DNA from: Mya arenaria
Lineage: Eukaryota > Mollusca > Bivalvia > Myida > Myidae
Direction of reading: 5' to 3'
NCBI RefSeq assembly: GCF_026914265.1
Contig: NC_069133.1
Location: 47,787,417 to 47,851,416 of the forward strand
Length of the DNA: 64,000 nucleotides
In this document: positions 11,601 to 60,890 of the stretch, one piece after another
How positions within the stretch are numbered: position 1 is the first letter of the stretch
How the letters are laid out: every line of letters begins with the position of its first letter
Notes under the pieces: generated by a model
Told to the model about the DNA's origin: nothing
What the model saw: only the letters and a program-made list of their open reading frames with translations
The model's database searches: none
Made by a program: the position numbers and the translations under genes

Positions 11601-14600
11601 TACATTAAAGGATTATAGGTTGTATACAATAATGCAAGAGTAACCATATTTTCCTCAATTACAGTGGAGCATTGTTTGAAGTTTCTATCTGTTGGTGGGA
11701 TATACAATGAATTTGTGGTTCAGTGCCCAGAAAATATATATTAAAATTGATGTTGAACAAAACAAAAATATAGATAGCTAAATGCAAAGACAAGTCAACT
11801 CTTCAATGCAATACATGATGTTACATGCAAAACATTAACCAGAATTTCAATGTCGAATAAAAAAGGGCCATTATTTGAATTTAATGCAAACTAGCGTTAT
11901 CTTACTTGATTATTTAAGTAGAATGGATGGTTGTGAACCATTGTATAAATTCTCATTGCAATACATTAAGTAGATGCAGAGATATTAACCGATGTGTGCT
12001 AACATGCAAAACCGTAACCAGAATTTCTAAGTCAAATAATAAAGGCCCCTTATTTGCATTATATTCAAATAATTGTTATCTAACTTCATTAATTTAGTAG
12101 GTTAGATAGTTGGGAATACATATCCAAAGTTTCAATGCAATAAATTATGTATTTACTGAGATAATGACTTAAAGGTGCAAAACCTTAACCAAGGTGTGAC
12201 GCCGAGCTTGGGTGAGTAGTACAGCTCTCCTTATTCTTCGAATAGTCGAACAAAAAATGTACATCCATCTGTATGGCTATCCATATCCTAGTTTGCAAAG
12301 GGAAAGGCAGTATACTTATGTAGCAGTTTGAGAAATACAAGAGCTCCTCAAAATGGATACCAGTAATGGTTTCTAACGAAAAACAAACTTCAGCGTGAAT
12401 AATATCAGCTTACATCTGTCATTTCGTTTGATTTATAAAGTAAAATTTTATTTCAATTTTTCAATCAAAAATCATTTGGAACTGTGAATAATTGGAGTCT
12501 TTTCCTCGTTTTTCTACTATTTCTTGACAAAGGAAATATGTCAAATAAAAACATTGGGGCTGGCAGTTTGGACAGCAGTAGATGTGGGAGTTAAAATCAC
12601 AAGAACATTACAGAGCAAAACCCAACACTTATTTGTTGTGGGATTTTGTAGTTGAAAACAGTGCATAACAATTACCGTACTTAAGCCAGAGTTATGGGAC
12701 TTGCAAAACATGAGCGTAAAGTCTCTAGCAATACATGTACCAAATTGCATTTTAATAATTCGAGGGGTGAATGCAAAAAGGTTCTAAGTGACATTGAATA
12801 AAGAAGAATATAGAACCTTTTCGCTTTCACCCCTCGATATCACCAAAGATTTTGGGACAAGGATCAATGACAACAACACCAAGGTCATCACAAGACCTCA
12901 ACTTTTTTTCTTCGTTGAACAGATGAGCTAAAAATAGTTTAACTCTGGTGTTAGTATTAACTAAACTAAACTCACCACAGCCTCCCCTGGTTGAGGAAGT
13001 AAATCAAGCTGAGAGAACTTATTGGCACAGGGGGCTTCAAATATATCTGCATGGCTCAACACTATGGTATAGCCATCTGGACCACAGGGGTTTGTGATGT
13101 TGGTGGTATTGTACCCCTCAGTCTGTAATGTAGAGAATTATGTTAGCACACAGGCTTCAAATATGTTTGCCAGGGTGTAGGGTGTAGCACCCTACCATAA
13201 CTAGCTAACACCCTACAGTCATCAAAATGAATTAATGTGCCTATGTAAGAAGTTGCTAAAGACCTACTGTTCAGCTGCAAATAAAACTGAGTCACAGTTT
13301 ATACATTACTTTTTATACATACACATGTATATTTATATATAACTGTGCATATCTATTCTCATCTTATGACACATTTCCCAGTCACAGGTAACTCTTAACG
13401 TGGTCACTTAAGGCTAATGAAAATTGGTTTAGTCTTGTTTAGGCTTGGAATTGATTCTACGGAAATTAAAGATTTAATATATTGCAGGTTGAGTATGCCC
13501 CAACATCACACTTGCAGGATGTGCTTGGCTCTGATCCACAGTTTGATATTCGCTAACCAGTCAGCCATAATAAAACCACACACATTTCACCTTACCAATA
13601 TAGCCTGGAACTGCCTAATAGCTTCATTGATGCGACAACAAAGGCTCCCAATGTTTACACATTGTGGTTTCTCCCATAGATCTCTCAGTTGATAAAGTCT
13701 AAACTTGACATGCTTCAAGAATACAAACAACCTTAGTCTTACGAACTCACCTTAACTAATATAGCCTGATACTGCCTGATTGCTTCATTGATTCCATAAC
13801 AAAGGTAGCTAGTGACAACCTTAGTCTTACGAACTCACCTTAACTAATATAGCCTGATACTGCCTGATTGCTTCATTGATTCCATAACAAAGGTAGCTGT
13901 GTGTATACACCGTATAATTTCTCCCATACAGATCCAGGTCCTCCCGATAGCTCTGCGGTATTTGGGCGTGGTCGGGCGTGTAGAACGTTATCTGAGTGGA
14001 AGCCCCGCCCATGTCCAGGGCGCCGACTGTTAGCTCTTCATACAGTGGGTCGCTCAGCTCATTGCTTGCCAGGCCCTGAAAATAAGGTTGATGGTTAGGG
14101 AATAAGTGATATTCAAAACTTAGGGCTTAGCTTCACCAAAACTAGATTAAACTTCATTTATCTGGTATTAAGTGATACACATATTTAAAATCAATACATA
14201 CACATGTATAACAAACATATATTTTGAGTGAGAATCCTTTTACTACTTACTAAGCAATGCATTTTTGAAAATATTAACTACTGATAACAAGATTGTAACC
14301 AGTTTGTATTTAATGCTGAAAACGCACAAACATTAAATGACTGATGGGTCCTAAAAGATTTACAGTTAATCAACTATCATCTAATGAGTTATAAGTTTCA
14401 TTCCAATAAATACTATGGTTTTTGAGTTATCGTCAAGGTTAAACTTTTTGCACAGCAACAATTTAAACACCACGAACACCAAAGTTCTCAAAATACCTAG
14501 ACCTTAATTCTTTAGACCAGTTAACACTTACCTTTTTCTATAATCAAAACATCTTTATAATTCTTACTGTTCTCTCAAATGAATTTTAAAAGAGAGTCTT

Positions 14601-17600
14601 TCACAAACTGACACCAAAATGCATTATCGTTGAAACCAACATTAAAAAACAACCAATTAAAATGTTAAACTGAATATTGTTGATCTTGACCCAAATATAC
14701 CAATACACCAGCAAACTTAAGAGGCACCAGCTAAGAAACCTATTTCTAATTAAGGAAAGGAGTTTGGTAGTGTCATGTTGTCTGTGATAGTTTTGAAAGT
14801 AAACAGTAGTTTTGTCATTGTTAATCCGCTAACTATTTTAACCTAAATCGCTAACACAGTATATAGTTGACGATGATAAAGACAAAATGTTAACATCTAT
14901 ATAAATGACCAAAGACAAGATTGTCCGGTTAGTACAGTGGTAAGCGCACTCGCTTCTTACCAAGGCGACCCGGGTTTGATTCCCCGGCTGGGCGCATGTG
15001 AGTTTGGTTAGTGGGCACCAAGCCGTACAAGTGGGTTTCTCTGGGATCCCCCACAACACAAGACCACACCCTCGCACACATCATGCCAATGAGAGCGATT
15101 AATATAAGTTGTAATAGCTTGTTTCACAATCGTTATAAAATTGAATAAAGTTTAAACTAAGACAAGATACCAATTTGCCAATAATTTTTTTAACTTGTTT
15201 TATAAAACTTTCCTGCATGATGCAAGCTTTCAGAAACTTTCCTTTACTAAATATTAATGATTTGCAGTACTTTAATTCAAGCTAACAAAAACATCAATCT
15301 CAAAAGATGCTATTTTACAATCCATGTGAGAGTCCTTTTAAAAACAGTTTTTTGCTATATAGGGTTTCAGCCAGGATTTGAAAAGGACAGGGTGCTGCCA
15401 AAAATGGGACAGTATGCTAAGGGAAATTAGAGTACAGTAAATCAGGCTATGAAGAACTTGAATATTATGAACTTGGCAGAAAATGTTAAAAATTGTGTTT
15501 AATTGAAGTAATACTAGATTTCAATTGCCAGATATGTAAAGTGTGTACGTATTTATAATCTTTTTATTAGTTTTAGACAGTAAAAAGGCATTATTTGACT
15601 GTCTCTGCATTTAATTCTATGAAGGCAGAAGGGTACCCATGCTGGTCTCCATGAGGGCAAAATGGTGCTACTGAAAGAGTGCAGCACCCTTCAATAACCC
15701 TTCAGCTAAAACCCTCATATAGGGACCCAAATCACATGGACAACTTACCGCACCCAGTTTCCCCGACACATAGTTAGCAGTGACCCAGCCAAATGTCCCC
15801 TCTTCCTGTCCCGATATAATACGAGCCTGTGCCGTATCATTGGGAAAGAAGAACGTAGAGTTGACCTCGAATGTTAACCGCACTTGGTTAAGGATAGCAT
15901 TACTTTTTGAGCTGTCAACTTCACTGTAATAAATGGGAAAAAATTAACTTTATTTGAAGAGTTGTATTTGATGAAAAAAAATGTATTAATCATAATTCAA
16001 TTATATTGTTTTACATTTTTTTCAAACTCCCTTAATTTTACACAATAGCACATAGACAGGAGTCTTTATATGACAAATTGCTATTGTTATGTCAATCTCA
16101 AATTACTGAGGAAATCAGGTTGTCTGGTTAGCCCAGTGGTTAGTGCACTCGCTTCTCACCAAGGCTATCCGGGTTCAATTCCCGACCTGGCAACATGTGT
16201 GTTTAGTTGGTTGTCAGAAAGCCAGACAAGTGGGTTTTCTTCAGGTTCTCCGATTTCCCCCACAACACAAGACCACAATATTGTGCAACATCGTCCCAAC
16301 GAAAGTGGCATAGTATAAGTCAATATAACTTTCTTCACAATCGTTGTAAAGATAAATAAAGTTTAAACAAAGGAAATCAGAGTAAATATCCTGCAAAGAG
16401 TATATATGATTAAATAATACAGCATAGATGTAAAGTTCTTTGATGGTCAATAGTAAAATACATAAATTAAATGATGATTAAAGGCGTAATTATAACAATG
16501 TAGAATGTAAACGAAAATTCTCACTTCAGCATTCTCATGCCCGCAGTTGCTCCGAGAAATATGGGCGTGGTTTTATGAGCAGTGTATGGCACATGACCCT
16601 TAGCTTCCTGCAGGCAATCAGACAGGGGTCCAGCAAGGGCAGAAATGTTGTTTTCGTAGGATGTTAAACCTGAACCTGAGACAGATATGAGTGAAATTAA
16701 CTTATATCACAATCACGAAAATATTTCTTTTTAAAAAATTGCAAATTTCTAATAAATAAACATTTAAAACACACCAGAGGAGAATTCTCATTGCCTCTAA
16801 AATTTGACATCAGTACTTGGTACTACATAGGAAACTACCCAAGTGGGATTCTTAAAGCTAACAGCTTTTGTCACATTCAAGCTAAAAGAAATGTTTAACG
16901 TGAAATTCAGATTTCAAATACTTTGAAACAGAAATTACATGAAAGTTTGTATCAAAATTAATTTTAATGTTACAGTTCATACCTTGTACTGGTTTGTCAA
17001 AAATCTGTCTGGCTTGTGCTGTATTTTCTAGCTTTCCTCCCTCCCATCGATATACAAACAGTTGTGTGTGGGATGATCCTGCATCTAGCACCACACCATA
17101 CTGCAAATAGAAAATACAGGGTTAAACATTCATCACACTATACTGCAAATAGAAAATACAGGGTTAAACGTTCACCACACCATACTGCAAATAGAAAATA
17201 CAGGGTTAAACATTCATCACACCATACTGCAAATAGAAAATACAGGGTTAAACATTCATCACACTATACTGCAGATAGAAAATACAGGGTTAAACGTTCA
17301 TCACACCATACTGCAAATAGAAAATACAGGGTTAAACGTTCATCACACCATACTGCAAATAGAAAATACAGGGTTAAAGTTCACCACACCATACTGCAAA
17401 TAGAAAATACAGGGTTAAACGTTCACCACACCATACTGCAAATAGAAAATACAGGATTAAACGTTTATCACACCATATTGCAAATAGAAAATACAGGGTA
17501 AAAAGTTCACCACACCATACTGCAGATAGAAAATACAGGGTTAAACATTCACCACACTATACTGCAAATAGAAACTACAGCGTTAAACATTCACCACACT

Positions 17601-20600
17601 ATACTGCAAATAGAAAATACAGCGTTAAACATTCATCACACCATACTGCAGAAAGAAAATACAGGGTTAAACATTCACCACACCATACTGCAGATAGAAA
17701 ATACAGGGTTAAACATTCACCACACCATACTGCAGATAGAAAATACAGGGTTAAACATTCATCACACCATACTGCAAATAGAAAATACAGGGTTAAACAT
17801 TCATCACACCATACTGCACATAGAAAATACAGGGTTAAACGTTCACCACACCATACTGCACATAGAAAATACAGGGTTAAACATTCATCACACCATACTG
17901 CAGATAGAAAATACAGGGTTAAACGTTCACCACACTATACTGCACATAGAAAATACAGGGTAAAACATTCACCACACCATACTGCAAATAGAAAATACAG
18001 GGTAAAATACAGGGTTAAACGTTCACCACACCATACTGCAAATAGAAAATACAGGGTAAAACTTTCACCACACCATACTGCAAATAGAAAATACAGGGTT
18101 AAACGTTCACCACACCATACTGCAAATAGAAAATACAGGGTTAAACATTCACCACACCATACTGCAAATAGAAAATACAGGGTTAAACATTCATCACACC
18201 ATACTGCAGATAGAAAATACAGGGTTAAACGTTCACCACACCATACTGCAGATAGAAAATACAGGGTTAAACATTCACCACACCATACTGCAAATAGAAA
18301 ATACAGGGTTAAACATTCACCACACCATACTGCAAACAGAAAATACAGGGTTAAACGTTCACCACACCATACTGCAGAAAGAAAATACAGGGTTAAACGT
18401 TCACCACACCATACTGCAGAAAGAAAATACAGGGTTAAACGTTCACCACACCATACTGCAGAAAGAAAATACAGGGTTAAACGTTCACCACACCATACTG
18501 CAGATAGAAAATACAGGGTTAAACGTTCACCACACCATACTGCAGATAGAAAATACAGGGTTAAACGTTCACCACACCATACTGCAGATAGAAAATACAG
18601 GGTTAAACATTCATCACACCATACTGCAAATAGAAAATACAGGGTTAAACATTCACCACACCATACTGCAAATAGAAAATACAGGGTTAAACATTCACCA
18701 CACCATACTGCAAATAGAAAATACAGGGTTAAACATTCACCACACCATACTGCACATAGAAAATACAGGGTTAAACATTCACCACACCATACTGCAGATA
18801 GAAAATACAGGGTTAAACGTTCACCACACCATACTGCACATAGAAAATACAGGGTAAAACATTCACCACACCATACTGCAAATAGAAAATACAGGGTAAA
18901 ACATTCACCACACCATACTGCAAAAAGAAAATACAGGGTTAAACGTTCACCACACCATACTGCAAATAGAAAATACAGGGTTAAACGTTCACCACACCAC
19001 ACTGCAAATAGAAAATACAGGGTAAAACATTCACCACACCACACTGCAAATAGAAAATACAGGGTAAAACATTCACCACACCACACTGCAAATAGAAAAT
19101 ACAGGGTAAAACGTTCACCACACCACACTGCAAATAGAAAATACAGGGTAAAACATTCACCACACCACACTGCAAATAGAAAATACAGGGTAAAACATTC
19201 ACCACACCATACTGCAAATAGAAAATACAGGGTTAAACGTTCACCACACCATACTGCAAATAGAAAATACAGGGTTAAACGTTCACCACACCACACTGCA
19301 AATAGAAAATACAGGGTTAAACATTCACCACACCACACTGCAAATAGAAAATACAGGGTTAAACGTTCACCACACCACACTGCAGATAGAAAATACAGGG
19401 TTAAACGTTCACCACACCATACTGCAAATAGAAAATACAGGGTTAAACATTCACCACACCATACTGCAAATAGAAAATACAGGGTTAAACATTCACCACA
19501 CCATACTGCAGATAGAAAATACAGGGTTAAACATTCACCACACCATACTGCAGATAGAAAATACAGGGTTAAACGTTCACCACACCATACTGCAGATAGA
19601 AAATACAGGGTTAAACATTCACCACACCATACTGCAGATAGAAAATACAGGGTTAAACGTTCACCACACCATACTGCAGATAGAAAATACAGGGTTAAAC
19701 GTTCACCACACCATACTGCAGATAGAAAATACAGGGTTAAACGTTCACCACACCATACTGCAGATAGAAAATACAGGGTTAAACGTTCACCACACCATAC
19801 TGCAGATAGAAAATACAGGGTTAAACGTTCACCACACCATACTGCAAATAGAAAATACAGGGTTAAACGTTCACCACACCATACTGCAAATAGAAAATAC
19901 AGGGTTAAACGTTCACCACACCATACTGCAAATAGAAAATACAGGGTTAAACATTCACCACACCATACTGCAGATAGAAAATACAGGGTTAAACATTCAC
20001 CACACCATACTGCACATAGAAAATACAAGGTTAAACATTCACCACACTATACTGCAGATAGAAAATACAGGGTTAAACATTAACCACACCATACTGCACA
20101 TAGAAAATACAGGGTTAAACGTTCACCACACCATACTGCACATAGAAAATACAGGGTAAAACATTCACCACACCATACTGCAAATAGAAAATACTGGGTA
20201 AAACATTAACCACACCATACTGCAGATAGATAATACAGGGTAAAATGTTCACCACACCACACTGCACATAGAAAATACAGGGTAAAACATTCACCACACC
20301 ATACTGCACATAGAAAATACCGGGGTAAAACATTCAGCACACCATACTGCACATAGAAAATACCGGGTTAAAACATTCACCACACCATACTGCAAATAGA
20401 AAATACAGGGTAAAACATTCACAACACCATACTGCCCATAGAAAATACAGGGTAAAACATTCACAACACCATACTGCCCATAGAAAATACAGGGTAAAAT
20501 GTTCACCACACCATACTGCAGATAGAAATGCAGATAGAAAATACAGGGTAAAACATTCACCACACCATACTGCACATAGAAAATACAGGGTTAAACATTG

Positions 20601-23600
20601 ACCACACCATACTGCAGATAGAAAATACAGGGTAAAACATTCACCACACCATACTGCACATAGAAAATACAGGGTAAAAAGTTCACCACACCATACTGCA
20701 CATAGAAAATACAGGGTTAAATATTCACCACACCAAAATGCAAATAAAACAAGCAAATTCGTTGAATTGATATCCCCCGTCTGAATAGGCAAATTTCATG
20801 GATTGGAAATGAAAAGTAGGTGGTATATACCTATATAGATATTAACATGTAATATGGCTGCAGAGAAATGGACCGTTATGAACGTTGGATATAAGTTTGA
20901 GTTTGTTTGGAATTATTTGAAATACACTTTTGTATATAGAGTCACATTTGTAATAGTTTCTATGAATTTGAATGATTTCAAAATATTTACACCTCAACTT
21001 CCCTTCCTTAAATGAACTGCCTTTCGGCAATTAAGTTCATCAATCGATGAACGCAACATCTTCAGATATGTTCGGATCGTAATTCATTGCATACCAATAT
21101 ACATGAAAGCTATTGATCTTGTTATTGGTTGTATTGTGTCTGCAGGTCCCGTAAAATATAGATCAACATTTTTAAAAGTGTAAGTTTATTATATTCTAAA
21201 TATATTGGTACCAGAATTGTTTTAATTTTACATTTTAAAGTGATTTCAAGTGGTTGATCTTTTCCCGCGTTATTGTGACGTCATTTGAAAAAATGTTTCC
21301 GGTTATAGTCGGGTCGTTCTATTTACAGAATGGGTAAGAACGGATTACTGAAAGGTTTTCTTAAATGAAATGAAGTATTTTTTTAACATTTATTGGTGTA
21401 AATATAAGGAATGAATTGCGGGGTTGATGTCATTATCGGGGATATGAAAGCAATTGGGTTGGTCAAAGTACGCGTGGAGTCCTTCGGACTCCACACACAT
21501 TGACCAACCCAATTGCGTTCATACCCCGATAATGACATCAACCCCGCAATTCATTCCTTAAGTGAAAGTTCAGATATGTCTGAAGTGATAACAGTAAATA
21601 GTGGAAAATGGCATTTTAAGGTACCTGTTGATCATGTTCATTGTGTGTTATTTTCAAGCTCGTTTTTAATGCCTCTAGTTTGTTCCAAAGATTTTTCTAA
21701 GATTTGACCCAGTGACCTAGTTTTTAATCCCATGTGACCCACTTCTACAAGCCATCCATATTTCATCAATGGGTACATCCTGACCAAGTTTAAACCTAAT
21801 CTGACCAATCATTACCATGATATGGTTCCTGACAAGATTTTTCTAAGATTTAACCTAGTGACCTAATTTTTTATCATATGTGACCCAGTTTTATATACGT
21901 CCAAGCGATCATCAAGGAAAACATTTTGAATAAGTTTCATGAATATTTGACCATGTATAATGCCTCTAGTTTGTTCCAAAGATTTTTCTAACATTTGACC
22001 TAGTGACCTAGTTTTTGACCCCATGTGACCCACTTTTACAAGTGGTCGAGATTTGTTCAAGGGGAACATTCTGACCAAGTTTGAACATTTTCTGATCAAT
22101 GCCTTCCAAGATATGGTTCTGGACGGATGGACAGACAGAATGACAAACGGACGGACAATGCCAAAACAATATCCCCCTCCCGAAACCTTTGTATCAGCGG
22201 GGGATCAAAATACAGGGTTAAACATTCAACACACTATAGTGCCAATAGAAAATACAAGGTTAAACATTTACCACATCATACTGCAAATAGAAAATACAGC
22301 ATAAACATTCACCACACCATACTGCAAAAAATACAGTGTTCAACATACGCCTCACCATACCGCCAATATAAAATACAGGGTTCAACATGCGCCACACCAT
22401 ACTGTCAATATAATACACAGGGCTCATTGTGTGCCACACCATACTGCAAATAGGAAATACAGGGATCAACATGTGCCACACCATACTGCAAAAAGACAAT
22501 ACAGGGATCAACATGTGCCACACCATACTGCAAATAGAAAATACAGGGATCAACATGTGCCACACCATACTGCAAATAGAAAATACATGGATCAACATGT
22601 GCCACACCAAACCGCAAATAGAAAATACATGGATCAACATGTGCCAAACCATACTGCAAATAGAAAATACAGGGATCAACATGTGCCACACCATACTGCA
22701 ATTTGAAAATACAGGGATCAACATGTGCCACACCATACTGCAAATAGAAAATACAGGGATCAACATGTGCCACACCATACTGCAAATAAAAAATACTTGG
22801 ATCAACATGTGCCACACCATACTGCAGTTAGAAAATACAGGGATCAACATTCACCACACCATACTGCAAATAGATAATACAGCGTTCAACATGTGCCACA
22901 CCATACTGCAAATAGAAAATACAGGGATCAACATGTGCCACACAATACTGCAAATAGAAAATACAGCGTTCAACATGTGCCACACCATACTGCAATTAGA
23001 AAATACAGGGATCAACATGTGCCACACCATACTGCAAATAGAAAATTCAGTGTTCAACATGTGCCACACCATACTGCAATTAGAAAATACAGGGATCAAC
23101 ATGTGCCACACCATACTGCAAATAGAAAATACAGCGTTCAACATGTGCCACACCATACTGCAATTAGAAAATACAGGGATCAACATGAGCAACACCATAC
23201 TGCAAATAGAAAATACAGCGTTCAACATGCATGACACAATTCTGCAAATAGAAAATACAGCGTTCAAGATGCATGACACCATTCTGCAAATAGAAAATAC
23301 AGCATTCAACATTCATGACACCATTCTGCAAATAGAAAATACAGCATTCAACATGCATGACACCATTCTGCAAATAGAAAATACAGTGTTCAACATGCAT
23401 GACACCATTCTGCAAATAGAAAATACAACAAGCAACAATTCCCAATAATATTATATGGGCTAGAAACTGTAGTAGTACTGGTCATGAGTTTCACCAACAC
23501 ATACGGCACTTTGTCATAGCTTTAACAATTACTTCTGTTTATAGATTCTGCACACAAAATGGCAGTCATAAGCGTCATTCATATGTAAAGCCGTCTTCAC

Positions 23601-26600
23601 AATCATGTTGAAATTAATAAATTTAAGCTAACTTATTGCCCAATAAAAAAAACACTTTAACTCATAGAGCTGCAAACTCACAGATTGACCGTTTTGACAT
23701 ATTTTTTAATTTTTGTTTTGGAATAAAACAATTTCTGCGTGAATTTCTGAACACCTGTAAGGCCTAAAAAAATATATGTCCGTTTCGGGTAACCCGACCC
23801 TACCTATAAAAATGCGCCGACCCTAACTATTTTTTTCCGTTTCTGAGCAAAAAAAATATTCATTAGCGAATAGAGAGTTATGAAGGGCGGATAAATACAG
23901 ATTTTAATCAGAATTATTGTTTATATGATAAAACAAAGTCAGGCAATGACAGTAATGTAGGAAAGACTGCCATGTGCAAGAAAACACTCTGAACTTTTGA
24001 CAGATTTTGAAAAAAAAAAATGAAAAAAATCTCTACCTACCCTACCTAGAAATTTTGGGAAGGTTACCCTAAACAAACATTTTTTTTGGCCTAATAAAAG
24101 ATCAGATCACACTTTTCTTAAATACCTTCAAAGAATGATCTTTAATGCTAAAAATTCAGTATTCTTAAAGCGCTAATAACTGCAATTATTCAAATCATTA
24201 TCACAAACAAAGGGACTTTAAACTTCCAGAAATCATTGCAATATAATTCCATTGTTTTACATATATATTTATTTGAAAGGATAAAACATGAATTAACAAC
24301 AACTGGTTTCATAAGGAGAACATAATCTTCCTGTCATTGTAGTATATAGTGACATTAATTGTGACAGTACTGATATTCAATATAATCAATTACTAATGCA
24401 CCAGTCAATTGTAACCACGGCTCCCCCAGGTCCGGGGAATAGCGGGGACATCGACTTTTGGTCCAGCTAAGCCCGGGTAAAATCCGCGCCCTGCAGGGAC
24501 GAACTGCTGGTTAAATACCCACCAAATGACCCCGCACCCCAGTGTCCATAGGAACGGACCATTCCCCGCTAGTTTTGGCGCAGACAAAACCAACGCATTC
24601 ACCCAGCGCTGCGAGGCCACTTGGAAGGTAAAACCACGGCCCATTTTCCAGCTATGCCCGGTATACCCCCGGATCTGGGAGGGCCGTGGTTACAATTTAC
24701 TGTTGCATAATAAATCATAATACAACATAAAGATAACAAGAGAGCCATGGAGCAAACCCCAATGCATATCTGTTTTTGTCAGTTGAATAAATGGTATAAC
24801 TCGACCACTATTGAAGCCAAAGTTATGGGCTTTGCTATACATCTATACATGTGCTGTTTCCCATGGCAACATGTATATACTGAGTTTCATTTGAATATCT
24901 TCAAAGTTTTTTGACAATAAGTTTTGTATGACCCCTTGGACAATGGCATTGACGCAGACAACACAGACACCAAGACTATGACAACAAATGTTTTCTCTGC
25001 AAAACAGACAAAGTTATAGTGTTCTGTCAAACAGTTTGTCTTCTTATTCCCCAGCAAAAGCAAAACCATGCATGAGAAAGACAGAAATATTCACTGTATA
25101 TAAATTATTTTAAGCGTACTCTCTAAACAAAAAATATTATTTGTATTCTCTAAACAAAAATAAAAAGTGCAAACACCAACTACAAAACAATCTCAGTTTC
25201 ATTTAATAGCATGTTGTGTCTGGGAAGAAATATCAACCCCTGTCTATAACTTATCTCAGGAAAACACTGCATGACAAGAAGTAATTATTTCTTTCCCAAA
25301 TGCCGATATTTAAACTTGCAACTCTCTACCAGGTATTGGAATTTGTTCCCTAATATGGCAATACCTGCATCTTTTTGTTTCACACATTTTACACATTAGG
25401 CAGGGTTAAAAATGTGTTTTATAAAACATATCCTTGGTGAAACCCCACAATATGCACTGTGGCAGCTCCACACAAAATAGGCACTGCTGGCTCGGCCTGC
25501 ACATTATTCTTTAAAATGTTATGTTTTCCCTTTCATATGTTGAAAACATATATTAGAAAGTTGTCATTAGAAATCACTTTTTATACTTTACTTTTTTACA
25601 TTTGATTTTATGCAATTAAATTCTGTTCACAGAATTTTGAACGCTTGAAGATCAAAATTAACGCCAGCATTGTTATTATTTTTTTCAGTTATTGTGGAGA
25701 TATGGACTACTGCCATACCAACCAGGTTCAAAAAAGTATAAATGTCAGACAAACCTGGTATGGTGTCTCTCCATTTCTTGTGAACATGATGGTAATTGCC
25801 GTGATGCCAACACCGCCAATAAGAAGAGAGACTGCGGCTACAAACCACCAACTGTTCCAGCTACACGGGTTGTGGTGGACCAAGTCCTCCTCTGGGGATT
25901 GAAAATACAAACAAGTCATGAAATAGATTTGATCCTTGGCAAATTTACAGTTAAGTAAAACAGTTTGCAAGGTCTATTTGGTACAATTGAAGGGAATGAC
26001 TTCAGAAGGTTTAAAAGTTACCATTTTAATTTAATATAATGTGCACATAGACAGTGTTACAATGATGGGCATTGGCTTAATACTTAACTTTCAAGTTTAA
26101 TAAGACAACAGATGAAGCCATATTGGTACAAATTGGTCATATCTTTGGAGTTACTCAAGCAATCATGCTGGATAGCTGTTTCATTCAAGATATACATGCT
26201 GATAAACAACATAACATAGTTTGATATTAGTTAATATTGGACAAGAACTCCTTAAGTCAGACAGCGGTCATTGTGGATGCCTTCATGGGGTACCCAATAA
26301 CACAAATCACATTCCATAATAATATGTGAGAAGTGACAAGAGTGCTGCAGAGACATCACTCTTCTCTCGCTTTTCAATTGAAAAAGGGGCATTACCCAAC
26401 AATTATTAAAGCTAGAGTCATGGTCTCTATTAAACATGTGTTGCTTGTCTGAGTCTCTAGAAACATGTGTTTCATGTTTCATATGAATATCCTGAACATT
26501 ATTTTGAGCTATAACCAAAGTTAATCTTTTTGCACATGCGCGACACTGACAACAACATTAGCAAGGCTATACCAGTACCTCGATTTCAGTCTTAAACAAG

Positions 26601-48200: not shown

Positions 48201-51200
48201 CATTATGAACCAGTCTGCTGAGAATAATTTCACAATGTGAATTTTTAAAAAAACAATATCATGGTTAAATGTTATTTACAACATGTAGATTTCAGAAATA
48301 GTTTAGGTTTAACAATGGTTTTGGGTACATATTTCATTGTACAAGGGTTGTCCCAAAAGTCTGTGAAAATGCTATTTTTCAACTTCATGACATCAGATTG
48401 ATATAAAATAATTGAAGAAAATTGAAATATTCTGGGTCAACCCTTGTATATTAAAATATTCTCCTGATTTTTGTAAAATTTTCTTTTTATTCTGTTTTGA
48501 CCCCTCAGGACGCTAAGAAACAAGCCAGCCAGCTTGAAAATAATGCAAAGAAATTCGCAGAAAAAACTCCACCTATGTCAGAAAGCTCTACAACAGTGTC
48601 CAATAAATCTGTAGTTTCCACTTCATCCTCAATTGATAATGTGACTGTTTTAGAGGCACCCACTATTTCAACTAGCAATACCCCAATAAGCATTAAAGAG
48701 GTCAAGGTCGTTGTTAATAATATAAGCTGTACTACACCAGTAATACATGTAAGCAGTAAAGTTGAAACGAAGGATACAGGTTCAGCATTAAATGAAGCTA
48801 GTAATAACGTCCTCCCAGATCAGCAGAGGAAGAAACTTCAAGAAAAGGTCCTTATTTGTTGCAACCATGCCGCTTTATTCTTGTATACACACATCCAAAC
48901 TGCTTTTATCAATGCCTGTTAACCTCACAACATCTGCAATGGCTTCATGGTTCAATGTTTTCCCTGCTGTAATATTTTCATACCAAAGGAGCAATGTGTT
49001 AATGGTTAATGGCCATCTGCTCACCAATCATTTGATTAGCAGTTGCAGACACCTTCGCACCTGCTAACCAAGCGTTTGATTGGTTTTGGCAGTTGCAGCC
49101 ACCTGCTAACCAAGCATTTGATTGGTTTTGGCAGTTGCAGCCACCTGCTAACCAAGCGTTTGATTGGTTTTGGCAGTTGCAGCCACCTGCTAACCAAGCG
49201 TTTGATTGGTTTTGGCAGTTGCAGCCACCTGCTAACCAAGCATTTGAGTTGCAGCCACCTGCTAACCAAGCATTTGACTAGCTTTGGCAGTTGCAGTCAC
49301 CTGCTAACCAAGCGTTTGATTGGCTTTGGAAGCTGCAGTCACCTGCTAACTAAGCATTTGATAAACTTGGGCAATTTATTACTGACATATGGAGATGTCT
49401 CATTGCTTCTAATTGGCTGTGCTGTATAAGCCTTGTTGCTGACACTCAGTATAATTCTGCTCCTTTTGGTGGTGTTTTGTTATTCTGTGGTGTCTGCTGG
49501 CGTGTTTCATATTCGCATACATTTTTATAATGCTTTAAGCTGGCCTGACCTTGAAAACTTGCACGGATATCTATGCATTAGAACAGTGCTTCTTATGAAT
49601 TGATGAACTACATTTTATATTAAAATTATTTGCCAGGTTTTGTGCTTATACTTCATCTGTGGTGTTTTCGTGCATATGACTTTTTGTCGTGTCTGTTTGG
49701 CGCATTTCCCATTCCTCATGTATTTGCATTAATCTTGCCTTATGTAAGCTTACTTATGTTGCAAAGTGATTGTCTTACAAAGTCATTTAATTCATTCAGT
49801 ATTATATACTTTGAAAATCTATATTTAACAATATAATATTACAAAAATAACTGTAAAAAATGCTAAAATTCATACTCAAAAGTTATTTATTGGTAATGTC
49901 TAGTATACATGCTTAAGGATACAGCTGTGATATTACTGAAGTTGGTTTGAAAATTATCATAACTTACTTTAGAAGTTTTCAAAAACTTTTTCAGGGGAGG
50001 AAACCATTCACAGCCCAGAAAACAGTGAGAGAACTCTTACACCAGAATGGAATTGAACCTAAGGACACAAATACCTCAAGGTTGGACATGGAACACAAAG
50101 AAAATAAACTTAGAGCAAGCAACAATGTCCCTGAGAGAAGGATCTTAGAATCGAATACTTCTAACATTGGTGTTAAGAGTGAGCCAAGCAGTGGAGTGGC
50201 AAATAATGTCTTCTCTACTTCATCCTCATTTCAGTCAGACATAAAGCCCCTCCCGGCAACGTTATTGCCTGTCCCAAACCAGGCACGCCCAATGTTTTAC
50301 CCCCAGATTTTACCAGTGGGTGGGGCAATGTCACCCATGGGAATGCCGTTCATGATTCCATCATTTAATTATCAGCCAATCAGTGCTTCCATACAGTCTC
50401 TGCCTGCAAATGTAAGAAATCCTGTTAGCATCAAAGAGGAACAGCCACTGACTGCGTTAAACAAAATGGCCGCCAGTGCTAGCCATAATAGTTCAGTAAG
50501 TTCAGGGAAGAGTGCAATGTCTAATACCGTCAGCCGACCCATGATTTCACCGCCATCTGCTCACACATTCAGCGTCAAGACATCATCGAGTGCTCTAAGC
50601 CCATTTCCCCAACGACCAATCACACCAGCTCATACAAACAACAACAAAAGACAATATCCTCCTTCTGATTCAAACAAAAACTTTTCTCATCCAATGGGTA
50701 ATTCCAGTTCAGTGCTTGGACATGAAAGTGATGTAAAACGTCAAAAATTGCATGGATCTCAAAGCAACATTTATTCATCTCCTTCATCTTCAGGCAATCT
50801 TGATGCACCGGTTCTTGACCTTAGCATGAAGACAATGAAAGCTCAAGAAGCTAAACATCACAGAGGGGAATCTTTGTTATTTGACGCAAGTTTCACTCGA
50901 GAAGGGAACTTTATTCCCAAATCTGAACCATATGATGCTCCCCAAGATCTCTCAAAGAAATCTCAATTTAACCCAATGGAGAATGTAGGGGAAAGAAATT
51001 TATCTTGCCACAAGAATGTTCCTTTAAATGTGCCACATCCCCACTCTATGCCATACATCAAAAAAGAAGAACCATCTCCAGTTAACCCTGAGGTAAGCTT
51101 CATTTCTTATGAGGTATTCTAAATCGAATTCTGAGGTAAGCTCCATTTCTTGCAAGGTATTCTAAATCTAATTCTGAGGAAAACTTCATTTCTTGCAAAG

Positions 51201-52155
51201 TATTCTAAATTTAATTCCGAGGTAAGCTCCATTTCTTGCAAGGTATGCTAAATGTTCATCTGAGGAAATCTCCATTTCTTGCCAGGTATCTAAGGTTTAT
51301 ACTGAGATAAGCCCCATTTTTTGCAAGGAGTTTTTAATTTTATCCTGAGGTAAGCTCCGTTTCTTGCAAGGTATTCTAAAGTTAATCCTGATGTTAGCTC
51401 CAATTCTTGCAATGTCGAAAAGTACCGGTAATCCTGAAATAACTACATTCATGCAAGGTCTTAATTTTTTTCTGAGGTAATCTCCATTTCTTGCAAGTTC
51501 TTCTTAATTTATTTCTGAGGTAAGCTACATTTCTTTAAAGGTATTCTAAAGTTAATTCTGTTATGAGCTCCATTTCTTGCAAGGTTATATAATTGTTAGC
51601 TTGCTTTCAATAGCTTTAAACAACAAACATTCAGTGATACACACTTTCTACATTGTATCATTGAACTCTTATTACTGACCAAGAGTTATGTGTCCTGTTT
51701 ATTATAGTGACAAAGAGAAGGTGTCTCTAACTAAAGCTTGGACGGTATCTATATGAAAACATTAAATGTATATGACAATTTTACAGACATCAGAATCCAT
51801 GACACCCCAGATCGGCAGCAAACTGTTCCCAGGCATGACCAGCATGGCCGGCCTACCTATGGATCCTTCGGCCATGTTTCACCCGGCGTTCCCGCAACAA
51901 ATGCTCATGGGGGGGCTGGGCTTGCCGGGGATGAGTGGAGGAATCCCAGGGATGGGAGGACTGTTCCCCACCCCCCTCCAGCTTCAACAGATGATACAGG
52001 GTCAAGTTGCGGGCATGGGAGGCTTTCCATTTTTGCGCCCAGATTTTCTACAAGGCCCCGTTATGTTTCCGGGGATGAATCCTGGAATGTTTACGTCTGT
52101 TGCGCCCTCTGTTATTAAGTCAAATCCCAGTGGATCAACAGCTGGCAAAAGATAG
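30981..52155 (+). CDS. ARID5B: ARID5-family (ARID5B-like) AT-rich-DNA-binding transcription regulator
   Basis: Exons: 30981-31001, 31227-31481, 35876-36089, 40343-40588, 40741-40877, 41297-41450, 42768-42820, one of 43663-43760 or 44098-44195, 46905-47055, 47855-48046, 48509-48847, 49995-51092 and 51787-52155 (TAG). The total is 3327 nt, 1108 aa, and all phases close. The N-terminus (FGPTCGKHG, KIISLGQFFFMK, PICIAELQLVWEE, LYFLPECTPDGR) matches the long form of vertebrate ARID5B and has a BAH-like pattern. APNLKGRPRGRRK precedes the ARID domain (about 309-405: EQAFLIDLHQFMKRR, IGRIPSLGFKQ, DLFQFYSLAEDIGGYEQ, RRHYEK, LLLPYERY). Exon 10 has an 18-residue tandem repeat starting KAGHTG. Exon 12 has a CtBP-type PQDLS motif and several SUMO-type VKSE, IKEE and IKKE sites. 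Exon 1 is tentative: an in-frame ATG at 31212 with good context is an alternative start. The exon 11 donor GTCCTT is weak; a stronger in-phase donor GTAAGC follows 48748. It is expected nuclear; ARID5B works with the demethylase PHF2 in vertebrates. Confidence 0.93.
34680..34840 (-). repeat. Dispersed repeat, inverted copy (ARID5 intron 2)
   Basis: The inverted sequence matches 56312-56610: both share CAATAGCGG, a GGTG-rich stretch, CTTAAATCGT, ATTTCAATA.AGG and GCCTTTTCGG. The rest of intron 2 (31482-35875) is AT-rich, with nothing recognised apart from a TA-rich run near 31540. Confidence 0.55.
36132..36645. mobile_element. TIR element carrying a tRNA-like segment (ARID5 intron 3)
   Basis: The left end TTAAAGGGACTGTGTCAC faces a right end that inverted reads TTAAAGGGGCTGTCTCAC. 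Inside, the minus strand at 36352-36283 reads TTTGTAGCTCAGTGAGTAAG ... CGCAGGTTCGAATCTGG, with A and B box words. The right end matches the element at 8141-8523 in the ENTPD 3' region. Confidence 0.65.
38268..38370. repeat. Trinucleotide microsatellite (GAT/GGT)n
   Basis: A GATGATGAT run turns into GGTGGTGGT and back to GATGAT, about 100 bp, in ARID5 intron 3. The surrounding 36650-40340 is AT-rich intron with nothing else recognised except the TA run at 39170. Confidence 0.95.
39170..39226. repeat. (TA)n microsatellite
   Basis: About 28 uninterrupted TA dinucleotides in ARID5 intron 3. Confidence 0.97.
41571..41915. repeat. Dispersed repeat, copy 2 (ARID5 intron 6)
   Basis: It matches 975-1335 in the same orientation. 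Just before it, 41543-41570 reads GGGCTGATTGTTCAGAATTT, which resembles the left end of the TIR element at 52619-52847, so the repeat may be part of a larger element. Confidence 0.6.
42667..43025. repeat. tRNA-like fragment and 19-bp tandem repeat around ARID5 exon 7
   Basis: On the minus strand 42730-42680 reads GAGAGTGGTCTAGTGGTACA, a tRNA-like A-box head related to 47645. After exon 7, 42938-43025 has four to five tandem copies of a 19-bp unit (TTAGCCAGTCTGGGTGTCA). Confidence 0.55.
43663..43760 (+). CDS. ARID5 alternative exon 8a (ARID domain, version a)
   Basis: 98 nt, acceptor TATATTTTCAG, donor AA|GTAGGTC. It reads I-S-N-K-R-M-W-K-H-L-Y-D-K-L-G-G-N-P-G-F, then TSAATCTRRHYEK after joining exon 9. 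It follows GGYEQ of exon 7 (phase 0) and leaves phase 2, which exon 9 (46905) completes with G. It shares WKH, GGNPG and ATCTRRHYE with vertebrate ARID5B. This segment forms the last helices of the ARID domain, including the part that contacts DNA in solved ARID structures. Confidence 0.93.
44098..44195 (+). CDS. ARID5 alternative exon 8b (ARID domain, version b)
   Basis: 98 nt, acceptor GGCCATTTTTAG, donor AA|GTAGGTC identical to exon 8a. It reads I-T-A-K-R-L-W-K-N-I-Y-D-A-L-G-G-N-A-G-S, then TSAATYTRRHYEK. By eye 24 of 33 residues match 8a, while 34 of 98 bases differ and 14 of the shared residues use different codons, so both are old and kept by selection. Entry and exit phases equal those of 8a. 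The intron between 8a and 8b is 337 nt. Confidence 0.93.
44642..44730. repeat. Hairpin element related to 12759-12838
   Basis: TCATAGGGTGAAAGCCAAAA faces TTTTTGCTTTTACCTCTTGA, with the loop word GGCATTGAATAATG, much like the copy in the ENTPD intron. Confidence 0.65.
44865..45810. repeat. 21-bp minisatellite in ARID5 intron 8
   Basis: About 45 units around TTGCAGTCATTGAATCAGGG, with 20-24 bp variants. Open frames on both strands (for example VAVIESG repeated, 45500-45808) arise from the 21-bp period and are not genes. The rest of this intron (44196-46904) shows nothing recognised. Confidence 0.93.
47645..47725 (+). mobile_element. tRNA-like SINE fragment
   Basis: AAGAGTGGTCTAGTGGTTCG ... 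GTGGGTCTGCTCCCCACC resembles a tRNA A box and T arm. The head is related to the minus-strand fragment at 42680-42730. Confidence 0.45.
49012..49375 (+). repeat. 42-bp minisatellite of 3'-splice-site-like units in ARID5 intron 11
   Basis: About eight units, starts 42 bp apart (49061, 49103, 49145, 49187, 49229), then one shortened unit and two diverged ones. In the sense of ARID5 each unit reads CTGCTAACC (branch-point-like CTAAC), then GTTTGATTGGTTTTGGCAG (U/G-rich and AG), then TTGCAGCCAC. The remainder of intron 11 shows nothing recognised. Confidence 0.9.
51087..51600 (+). repeat. Tandem array of the ARID5 exon 12 donor site, about 12 units of about 43 bp
   Basis: The first unit contains the real junction CCTGAG|GTAAGCTTC (exon ends 51092). 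Following units repeat CTGAGGTAAGCTCCATTTCT, then TGCAAGGTATTCTAAA and AATT. By eye GAGGTAAG is intact in units 1, 2, 4, 7 and 11 and mutated in the others (for example GAGGAAAA, GAGATAAG, GATGTTAG). Each intact unit is a consensus 5' splice site. Confidence 0.9.
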
Positions 52156-57787: not shown

Positions 57788-57956
57788 TGTCATGAATCGT
57801 ATTTGTATAACATTACGCGCGAACTTACGTAACGTGACGTCGCGGCGTATGGACTTAACGTCGACGTCACTTCCATTGATTAGTATATATGATTGTTGAG
57901 TAAAAGGATCGAACCTGACACGACGTGTTGTTTACTTACTCAGTCTTACAAAAACA
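57788..57956 (+). repeat. 5' LTR of the BEL/Pao element
   Basis: 169 bp beginning TGTCATGAATCG, CpG-rich (GTGACGTCGCGGCG), with TATATATG in the second half. It differs from the 3' LTR at three positions by eye. Confidence 0.93.
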
Positions 57957-57980
57957 TTTTGGTGCCGTGACAAAGCCAAC

Positions 57981-59334
57981 ATGCAGCTAACAAAGCTAAC
58001 TTCAATGCGAGATGGACATAGGAAACTTGTCGAAAACATACTTTTGAAGTTTGAGGAGGAATCATCTAATTTCAAGCGCATCAAGTTGCTGGAAATTCTA
58101 GCGGAGAAGGCGGAAACCATCAAAGACTTATGTGAGAAAATCGTAAGTCATGCAGACATTGCTGACTTGGAGACGGAGCTTGTTGAGAGTGAGGAATACT
58201 CTATCGACCTTGAATTGAAACTGCTGACACACCGTAGACAAACACAACATGCATCCGAGAACACAGACTTATCCAAGAGTGACGAAAACAAGAATCGCAA
58301 TGCAGAGGCGATACGGATAAACGAACAGTCAGCGCCATCAGAAGTGATGCCACAGCTTTATCACAAATTGCCATACCTTTCGCTGCCGAATTTTAATGGT
58401 GACATAACCGAATGGCAAACTTTCTGGGATTGCTACGAGTCATCAGTGCATTCGAACCACACCCTGTCTGATGTTCAAAAATTCAGCTATCTGCGATCAT
58501 TGTTACATGGAAGCGCTGCCTCAAGTATTGCTGGTTTCCCATTAACGAATGCAAATTACGCAAAGGCCGTTGAGCTACTAAAAGAACGTTTTGGCCAGAC
58601 GCATAAGATCATCAGCACGTATATGCAGTCCTTGCTTGAACTGCCACGGCCGGAGAATACTCCGCACAGCATACAGACTTCGTGATAAAATGGAAACATA
58701 CATCAGAGGCCTCGAGTCCTAAGGCCAGTCTCAAGAATCATATGGCGACTTGTTGGTTCCCATCATCAGAGACAAACTTCCGAAAGAGCTGAGACGTAAT
58801 ATGGCCCGTGACCATGGCGACCGACCGTGGACGCTACCGGAAGTGAGACGAGCCATTGGAACGGAAATCAACGTGTTACAGGAAGGAGAAATCCCAGTGT
58901 TCCAGGAAAATCACATGCCAACAGCATCCTTCCTTGCCGGAAATGGTAGAACAAACAGGAAGCAGACGCACAAACGAAAGGTATCGAAACAAGTTACAAA
59001 TTATCTTAGTCGAGTGACATGTGCTTTTTGCAATGGAGATCACAAATCGTCTGATTGGGAAAGCCTAGCCAATGTTGATGAGAGAATTGAATGCGTGAAA
59101 CGTAAACGATTGTGTTTCAATTGCTTATCAGACGACCATCAAGTATCCGTCTGCAAGTCAAATTTCAGATGTCGCAATTGTCAGCGAAGGCATCACACAG
59201 CAGAGGACAATAGGCAAACTGAATCCCGAAGCAGCTCTGTTTCAGTCAAAGACAGACAGGCAACCGGACATTGCCATACTGCACTCAACGACACAACACC
59301 GTCCAAATGTTCTTCTCAAAACTGCCATTGCTAG
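57981..59334 (+). pseudogene. BEL/Pao gag-like region with zinc knuckles, broken
   Basis: The first frame, 57981-58685 (234 aa), has a coiled-coil N-terminal part and the DUF1759-type core (LPNFNGDITEWQTFWDCYES, FSYLRSLLHGSA). A frameshift and an in-frame TAA near 58680-58725 break it. The second frame (about 58735-59334) continues with VPIIRDKLPKELRR and Cys-rich knuckles (CFNCLSDDHQVSVC, CRNCQRRHH), then stops at TAG 59332. Gag binds and packages element RNA. Confidence 0.88.
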
Positions 59335-59339
59335 CGTGA

Positions 59340-60890
59340 TTGCTAGCAACAGATGCCAACATTTTGTTTGACGAAGGGGCACAGAGGTCATTTATTACTG
59401 AACAATTGGCAACCAAACTCAAACTAAGACAGACGGGAATTGAGACAATCCACTTAGTTTCCTTCGGCGACAGCACACAGAACGTGCGACAAATGGCGAC
59501 GGCGACAGTGAATCTTCTTACAGATAGACATGAGAAAATCGAAATCGATGTTTTGATAGTCCCAACTATTGCAGTGCCGTTATCAAACATTCAAAAGGAA
59601 GTGAAGTCATTGAGTTATCTCCGGGGACTTAAGTTGGCACACCCAGTGACTGATGCTGAAAGTTTTGACATTTTATTACTGATTGGTGCGGATTCATACT
59701 GGAAAATAGTTTCAATCATGTCGTCAGGGGCAACGGCCTACTGCCGTGAAGTCGAAAATTGGATATCTGCTTTCCGGTCCGTTACCCGGCAAAACACAAC
59801 AACCATCCGCTCAGTACATGTTGAATGTCATCACAACTCCGCCGACGACCCTGGACTTGGAGCGCTTTTGGAAGCTTGAGTCCATCGGAATCACACCGGA
59901 AGGAGACGATACTTCCGGTTCCCGTAACCTGAAGACTTACATGGAATCTAACATATCATATGACGAGGGTCGCTACATCGCCAAGCTTCCATGGAAAGAT
60001 GACCATCTGCCGTTGCCGACCAATTATGACGTTAGCGTGAGACGTACAGAAAACTTGATCAAGTGGTTGCAAAAAGAACCATTCATGTTGCAAAAATACG
60101 GTGAAATTATTCGTGAACAAAGAGATCGGGGATTTATTGAAACAGTGGATACAAACGTTAAAAACGATCATCCCATTCACTACATTCCCCACCATGGAGT
60201 TATAGGAGCAGCGAATCACCTACGTGAACTCATGCAATCAAATGCAGTACAGGAAGAGCTCAACAACAAAGGAACAGAATGGCGCTTTATCGTAAAACGT
60301 GCTCCGTGGTACGGAGGATGGTGGGAGCGCCTGATGGGGTTGACCAAAACTGCCGTCAAGAAGGTACTCGGTCGATCGTATTTGGACTTCGAGACGTTAT
60401 CCACTATCATCACAGAAGTGGAGGCCGTTATCAATGACCGTCCACAAACTTACGTCACTTCCGGAGAGGTCGAGGCGGAGCGCTCCCATTGACGCCATCG
60501 CACTTGCTGTATGGAAGACGACTTACAAAGTTGCCTCATTCCGATGACATTGAACTTTCGGGCCCCCGTGCGAGTAACTTTGAAAACATCACGAGGCGAG
60601 CGAGGACCCAGAAAAAGTTAATTGACAATTTCCGCGTACGATGGAAGACTGAATATTTAACAGCTTTAAGGGAGCACCACCGTGTTTCCGGCAAAAACCA
60701 GCAGACGATCAAGGTTGGCGACGTTATCCAGGTCCACAACGAGACACCGAGGTCCTCATGGAAACTAGCAGTTGTGGAGGAGACCATTACCGGAAACGAT
60801 GGATTGGTTCGTGCAGCGCGGATTCGGACACAAAATGGATCACACTACCCGCCCTATCGTAAAACTGTATCCACTAGAAGTGATGTGTGA
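59340..60890 (+). pseudogene. BEL/Pao pol remnants: protease, RT start, integrase end
   Basis: Three frames. 59340-59879 holds the retropepsin-like DUF1758 region (ILFDEGAQRSFIT; the usual active Asp reads D-E-G). In the next frame, up to 60492, the RT leader (LERFWKLESIGI, EGRYIAKLPWK) runs to HYIPHH and then jumps at about 60200 straight into the integrase end (FIVKRAPWYGGWWERLMG, VEAVINDRPQTYV). 60489-60890 holds the DUF5641-type tail (LTPSHLLYGRRL, VGDVIQVH). The RT YxDD box, RNase H and the first integrase Asp residues are missing. Confidence 0.88.

Follow-up and report, generated by a model that had tools for sequence, protein, structure and literature searches.

A splice-junction minisatellite before exon 4 of an ENTPD gene in Mya arenaria, probably grown in place

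A 64 kb stretch of the genome of the clam Mya arenaria (C12:47787417-47851416; the window, meaning the whole stretch of DNA that was analysed) carries on its minus strand a 12-exon ENTPD gene, running from about 27863 to 8675, in which the acceptor of exon 4 at position 17100 is preceded by a long tandem array of a 42-bp unit that itself contains this acceptor. The array is a splice-junction minisatellite, a type of structure already known from amphioxus as a "mirage", and is much larger than the amphioxus globin cases. The explanation that we favour, and consider fairly probable, is that it grew in place and is near-neutral, that exon definition picks the acceptor at 17100, and that rare RNAs made from the upstream decoy acceptors are unproductive.

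The features concerned are listed below, with array coordinates, periods and copy numbers taken from Tandem Repeats Finder (TRF).

16983..17100, minus strand: exon 4, 118 nt, which codes for ACR1 (YGVVLDAGSSHT...), with donor CAAG/GTATGA
17089..17130, minus strand: real acceptor unit, positions -30..+12, equal to the array consensus at 42/42
17089-20746 (decoy part 17101..20746), minus strand: near array, TRF 42 bp x 86.5 copies, 93% matches
20747..22206, no strand assigned: nested mobile elements, the outer element split by an inner element of about 580 bp (about 20982-21560)
22207..23427, minus strand: far block, more diverged, TRF 42 bp x 29.2, 28 scanned sites, 25 with AG
17101..25754, minus strand: intron 3, 8,654 nt, of which the array makes up 56%
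25755..25892, minus strand: exon 3, transmembrane segment, ending ...NGETPYQ, 5' edge approximate

On the gene strand the unit reads AATGTTTAACCCTGTATTTTCTATTTGCAG/TATGGTGTGGTG and corresponds to 30 intron and 12 exon bases of the real junction (-30 to +12), and the array adjoins exon 4 with zero gap. TRF and the unit listing thus bear out an earlier sequence-only reading, which had described a 42-bp array before the ACR1 exon whose unit crosses the exon boundary with 12 exon bases, and the array as an observation is confirmed. A scan of the near block located 85 decoys besides the real site, 83 of which keep the AG; one site, which the scan placed at 20527, belongs to a 54-bp unit whose CAG lies at 20515, and by eye the AG count is 84. 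A word matching the branch consensus yTnAy ends at -21 in 84 of the 85. Identity to the real site is found in 27 near decoys over -20..+3, in 13 over the 30 intron bases and in 9 over all 42 positions, and in the far block in 4 of 28 over -20..+3 and 0 of 28 over 42. The sequence-only reading had counted about 86 decoys identical to the real site; the count overlooked the second block, and identity holds for at most 36 of the 85 near decoys, those with the exact 14-base word TTTTCTATTTGCAG, and not for the remainder. At least one odd-length far unit with an AG (22321) was missed by the scan, so that the decoys number about 113 or slightly more, and the two scans together give 108 AG acceptors with pyrimidine tracts in one intron.

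The gene product, an enzyme that degrades ATP, has ENTPD2 (E 3.2e-66) and ENTPD1 (E 3.5e-64) as its closest solved relatives and, with its PF01150 match, belongs to the ecto-NTPDases (the ENTPD1/2/3/8 group); the deposited record is named ENTPD8-like (Mya arenaria). Exon 3 ends at the donor CCATACCAG/gtttgt at 25755, and the first codon of exon 4 is Y (TAT). In the deposited Mya proteins P0001 and P0002 the sequence runs PYQ-YGVVLDAGSSHT, which places the acceptor at 17100 with no insertion. Protein records of Mercenaria and Mactra likewise pass from YQ to YGVV without an insert. To the extent that a full protein model is informative, the ENTPD gene is intact. An NCBIfam profile search of exon 4 returned no match. 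Long open frames run across the array (901 aa on the plus strand, 703 aa on the minus strand); a coding role for them was rejected, as they are a by-product of the 42-base period.

Read in the direction of exon 4, the translation from every one of the 85 near and 28 far decoys (113 of 113) ends at a stop before that exon is reached, which supports the prediction that all detected decoys would be unproductive in the exon 4 frame. The stop is the seventh codon (as in YGVVNV-stop) in 62 of the 85 near decoys and in 2 of the 28 far decoys. The unit nearest exon 4 reads YSVMNV-stop. A unit of 42 bases is 14 codons, and units without the TAA stay open into the next unit until a stop is reached.

The origin of the array was addressed by a search of the 1.216-Gb assembly (18 contigs) for the 30-base pattern CACACCATACTGCANATAGAAAATACAGGG with up to 3 mismatches, a setting that very diverged copies would escape. 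All 106 matches genome-wide, on one strand only, lie in the window (106), against an expectation of 0 in the shuffled window, and an origin from a dispersed satellite was rejected on this ground. At 42/42 positions the consensus of the 85 near decoys has the base of the real site. Since the unit is private to the locus and its consensus is that of the real site, the array grew from the 3' splice site of ENTPD exon 4, as had been proposed from the sequence.

Neighbouring units resemble each other most: the mean mismatch is 2.33 at lag 1 and 2.7-3.1 at sampled lags from 2 to 30, and it reaches 4.0 at lag 60 and 5.0 at lag 80. In ten-unit blocks outward from the exon, the mean mismatch of the near block to the real site is 2.4, 2.1, 1.6, 1.5, 1.8, 1.3, 1.5 and 3.9; the last five near units average 4.0, or 2.5 once one misplaced site is excluded. 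The far block has means of 7.1, 5.9 and 6.75. Units are thus most uniform in the middle of the near block (1.3-1.8) and less so on its exon side (2.1-2.4), and those of the far block have diverged furthest (5.9-7.1). The pattern is consistent with unequal exchange that acted locally and homogenised the core.

The two blocks are separated by nested mobile elements. Copies of the outer element alone, at about 87-90% identity and without the inner part, are found at C11:48468489-48469341 and C4:42851600-42852429. The inner element (about 20982-21560) is abundant and has inverted ends of about 155 bases; 37 of the 40 genome candidates that were scored, out of 5369, match the inner part. The insertion lies inside one unit, with the register kept to within one base (GCAAATA, then the element, then AAAATACAGGG). 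The in-register resumption and the outer copies without an inner part together indicate a single array of about 115 units that is older than the outer element, which in turn is older than the inner one. A larger duplication yielding two arrays with a common intron flank (GAATTTGCTTGTT beside both) was considered and rejected for the near side, where the stretch is the end of the outer element. The outer flank of the far array (23427-23445) weakly resembles the end of the outer element (ACAAGCAA..ATTC).

Under the favoured explanation, a tandem duplication of -30..+12 at the intron 3/exon 4 junction would have been followed by repeated unequal exchange. The outcome would be a single array with about 115 near-complete 3' splice sites, in most of which a branch-like word, a polypyrimidine tract, an AG and 12 exon bases are present. 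A transposon, later itself invaded by another, would have split the array, and the near block would have been homogenised afterwards, leaving it a consensus in common with the real site. Exon definition, the recognition of an exon as a unit with its donor, is established; the real site alone is followed by a short exon whose donor lies 118 nt downstream, and this sole real donor would favour the nearest acceptor, at 17100. Were an upstream unit occasionally used, exon 4 would gain a multiple of about 42 nt and its reading frame would run into a stop, and such RNAs would be unproductive and subject to nonsense-mediated decay. Exon definition accordingly predicts rare +42 and +84 products; we infer that decoys are used at a low rate and that the array is close to neutral for the gene.

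Several observations weigh against this explanation. There is no clean outward gradient of divergence, and units on the exon side match the real site less well than mid-block units do. P0001 and P0002 differ elsewhere, P0002 being shorter and lacking stretches present in P0001, so that neither proves the transcript; protein records are also blind to unproductive isoforms, and the deposited models may in part be computational predictions. The 18 polypyrimidine/AG columns carry fewer rare variants (10) than the 24 other columns (29). Judged by eye and without formal correction, this deficit plausibly reflects base composition, as T columns vary little everywhere, and constraint on the decoy AG and pyrimidine tract is a less likely explanation for it.

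Tandem repeats crossing an exon-intron boundary have been described in amphioxus Adh3, in the globins BflGb6 and BflGb9, in TnC and in PGBD5 (PMC3087553, PMC3902484). Units are 10-72 bp in Adh3 and 150-160 bp in BflGb6, where the mirage is on the acceptor side with 6 and 3 units in two haplotypes, and the BflGb9 mirage is on the donor side (PMC3087553). PGBD5 mirages have units of 60 and 108 bp, with TnC named alongside (PMC3902484). The clam array has the structural features of this class: it is a head-to-tail, minisatellite-like repeat, its unit crosses an exon-intron boundary of a real gene (ENTPD exon 4), and its AG is kept in many but not all copies (83/85 near, 25/28 far). As in amphioxus, minisatellite-like copies over the boundary carry AG or GT signals; either side of an exon can be affected there, and BflGb6 resembles the clam array in being on the acceptor side. 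The clam array differs from BflGb6 in having about 115 units of 42 bp, split by transposons, in a bivalve, rather than a few units of 150-160 bp. In amphioxus regular splicing is reported to be intact, with support from reverse transcription PCR (RT-PCR), and length instability is also reported (PMC3087553); for the clam, the two deposited proteins use the real acceptor. No bivalve mirage stood out in the literature searched, Mya arenaria and molluscs included, although this does not prove absence. The array is a new mirage, which extends the kind from amphioxus to a bivalve at a copy number far above the globin cases.

Minisatellites at junctions also occur in human segmental duplications, where internal tandem repeats at exon-intron boundaries can alter splicing; unlike the clam array, they vary between recent paralogs, average about 4 units of 30 bp and are tied to new introns (PMC2812944). 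The nearest case with measured effects is the variable number tandem repeat (VNTR) of human ABCA7, a 25-bp unit present in about 12 to 427 units, the first two bases of which are the exon 18 donor (PMC5954066). It resembles the clam array as a short-unit repeat at a splice junction, and in ABCA7 one-unit retention and unproductive isoforms arise. It differs in being on the donor side with known length polymorphism and measured effects, in comparison with an acceptor-side array with 12 exon bases per unit that is read from sequence. The ENTPD array does not start at a splice donor as the ABCA7 repeat does; a different array in the window, at 51088, is donor-side.

Array length could nonetheless matter by a route like that of ABCA7, with a longer array reducing output because exon 4 is skipped or intron 3 is removed slowly, rather than through decoys. 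In ABCA7, a longer VNTR is correlated with more exon 19 skipping (p = 3.24e-13) and lower expression (PMC5954066), and in the clam the array fills more than half of intron 3 and the loss of exon 4 would shift the frame, 118 nt not being a multiple of 3. We regard this route as unlikely, as the ABCA7 array is C-rich and donor-side and the skipping there hits the exon after the array.

The sequence-only reading had instead proposed a splicing rheostat, in which competition from the decoys for the spliceosome would make the productive share of ENTPD mRNA a function of copy number. In its favour, 31 of the 113 decoys (27 near, 4 far) have the same -20..+3 as the real site and tie with it in a score of that stretch, and every decoy is predicted to be unproductive. 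Since so many tie, this stretch alone cannot select 17100, and the true site must be recognised by more, for example donor distance, exon content or transcription order; the locus is in this sense a natural experiment. Exons defined from decoys past the nearest few, however, would be hundreds to thousands of nucleotides long, and under exon definition the more distant copies would matter little, which speaks against copy-number tuning through decoys. Amphioxus mirages are reported to cause no interference in regular splicing (PMC3087553), and it is the last acceptor that both deposited Mya proteins show in use. In ABCA7, unit retention is independent of VNTR length and skipping of exon 19 increases with it (PMC5954066), a combination that fits exon definition. 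As the nearest tested case, ABCA7 argues against tuning in the form proposed, which is not supported and which we consider improbable. It is more doubtful still that there is concerted evolution between the array and the real acceptor with the first four codons of exon 4, exchange with decoys rewriting the coding edge, and that array length is a heritable rheostat varying between clams.

An assembly artefact or a wrong copy number seems very unlikely. Long-read arrays can collapse or expand, and near-identical locus pairs elsewhere in the assembly could be unmerged haplotypes, but the patterned unit variants, the diverged far block and the nested transposons are atypical of a simple artefact. 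The assembly paper describes PacBio long reads with a contig N50 of 3.4 Mb, and a published assembly of 1.22 Gb in 17 scaffolds (PMC10663159). Least credible is selection of the array as an RNA-level regulator, either a sponge for a U2AF- or PTB-like protein or a stress switch like a poison exon, for which the abundance of AG acceptors with pyrimidine tracts and the lower number of rare variants in tract and AG could speak, although the latter is plausibly a matter of base composition.

In addition to the mirage at exon 4, two further junction duplications lie within the window.

13727..13898, minus strand: second junction duplication, in ENTPD, two tandem 88-bp copies across the 3' end of exon 7 and its donor
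51088..51585, plus strand: third junction array, 43-bp x 11.7 from donor CCTGAG/GTAAGC at 51092

The 88-bp pair is identical at 84/84 overlapping bases, and translation past the first exon 7 donor gives VSS and then a stop. The 43-bp unit is private to its locus (8/8 genome matches there), GAGGTAAG recurs four times in the array, and the exon with the 51092 donor is continued in frame by an exon at 51787. The host gene is ARID5-like by a weak name, which comes from one moderate Ruditapes match (39% over 40% of the query); a Pfam search of the long plus-strand exon gave only DUF348 at E 0.24, below the cut-off. A relative of ENTPD on C11 (L007 1642-1680) has an 18-bp repeat of 2.2 copies over the donor AATGAG/GTAAGG.

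The frequency of such arrays was gauged in 30 ABC transporter and 30 myosin loci, out of 85 and 96 matches, with exon ends approximated by the ends of profile matches. None of these 60 exon loci, which are not independent (42 pairs have more than 30% of 21-mers in common), has an array crossing an exon end, which speaks against a strong genome-wide excess of junction arrays. In four close cases inspected by eye (L031, L043, L053 and L073, with L032 not among them) the array lies next to the exon; in that region L054 and L074 match L053 and L073 at 99.7% identity. One ABC transporter locus (L022 2528-2966) contains a 39-bp x 11.3 array with 99% matches and the acceptor-like TTTCATTGTAG in its unit, with no exon edge identified. 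Within the window the excess is modest: of 17 arrays with a period of at least 10, counted after overlapping rows had been merged by hand, 3 hold one of 24 boundaries, several of which are tblastn ends and one of which was entered 4 bases off, against 1.7 expected under random placement (P 0.23). An array end falls within 60 bases of a boundary in 3 cases against 0.72 expected (P 0.03), by a criterion chosen post hoc.

Elsewhere in the window, positions 57900-60890 contain open frames that, by eye only, have the look of a retroelement.

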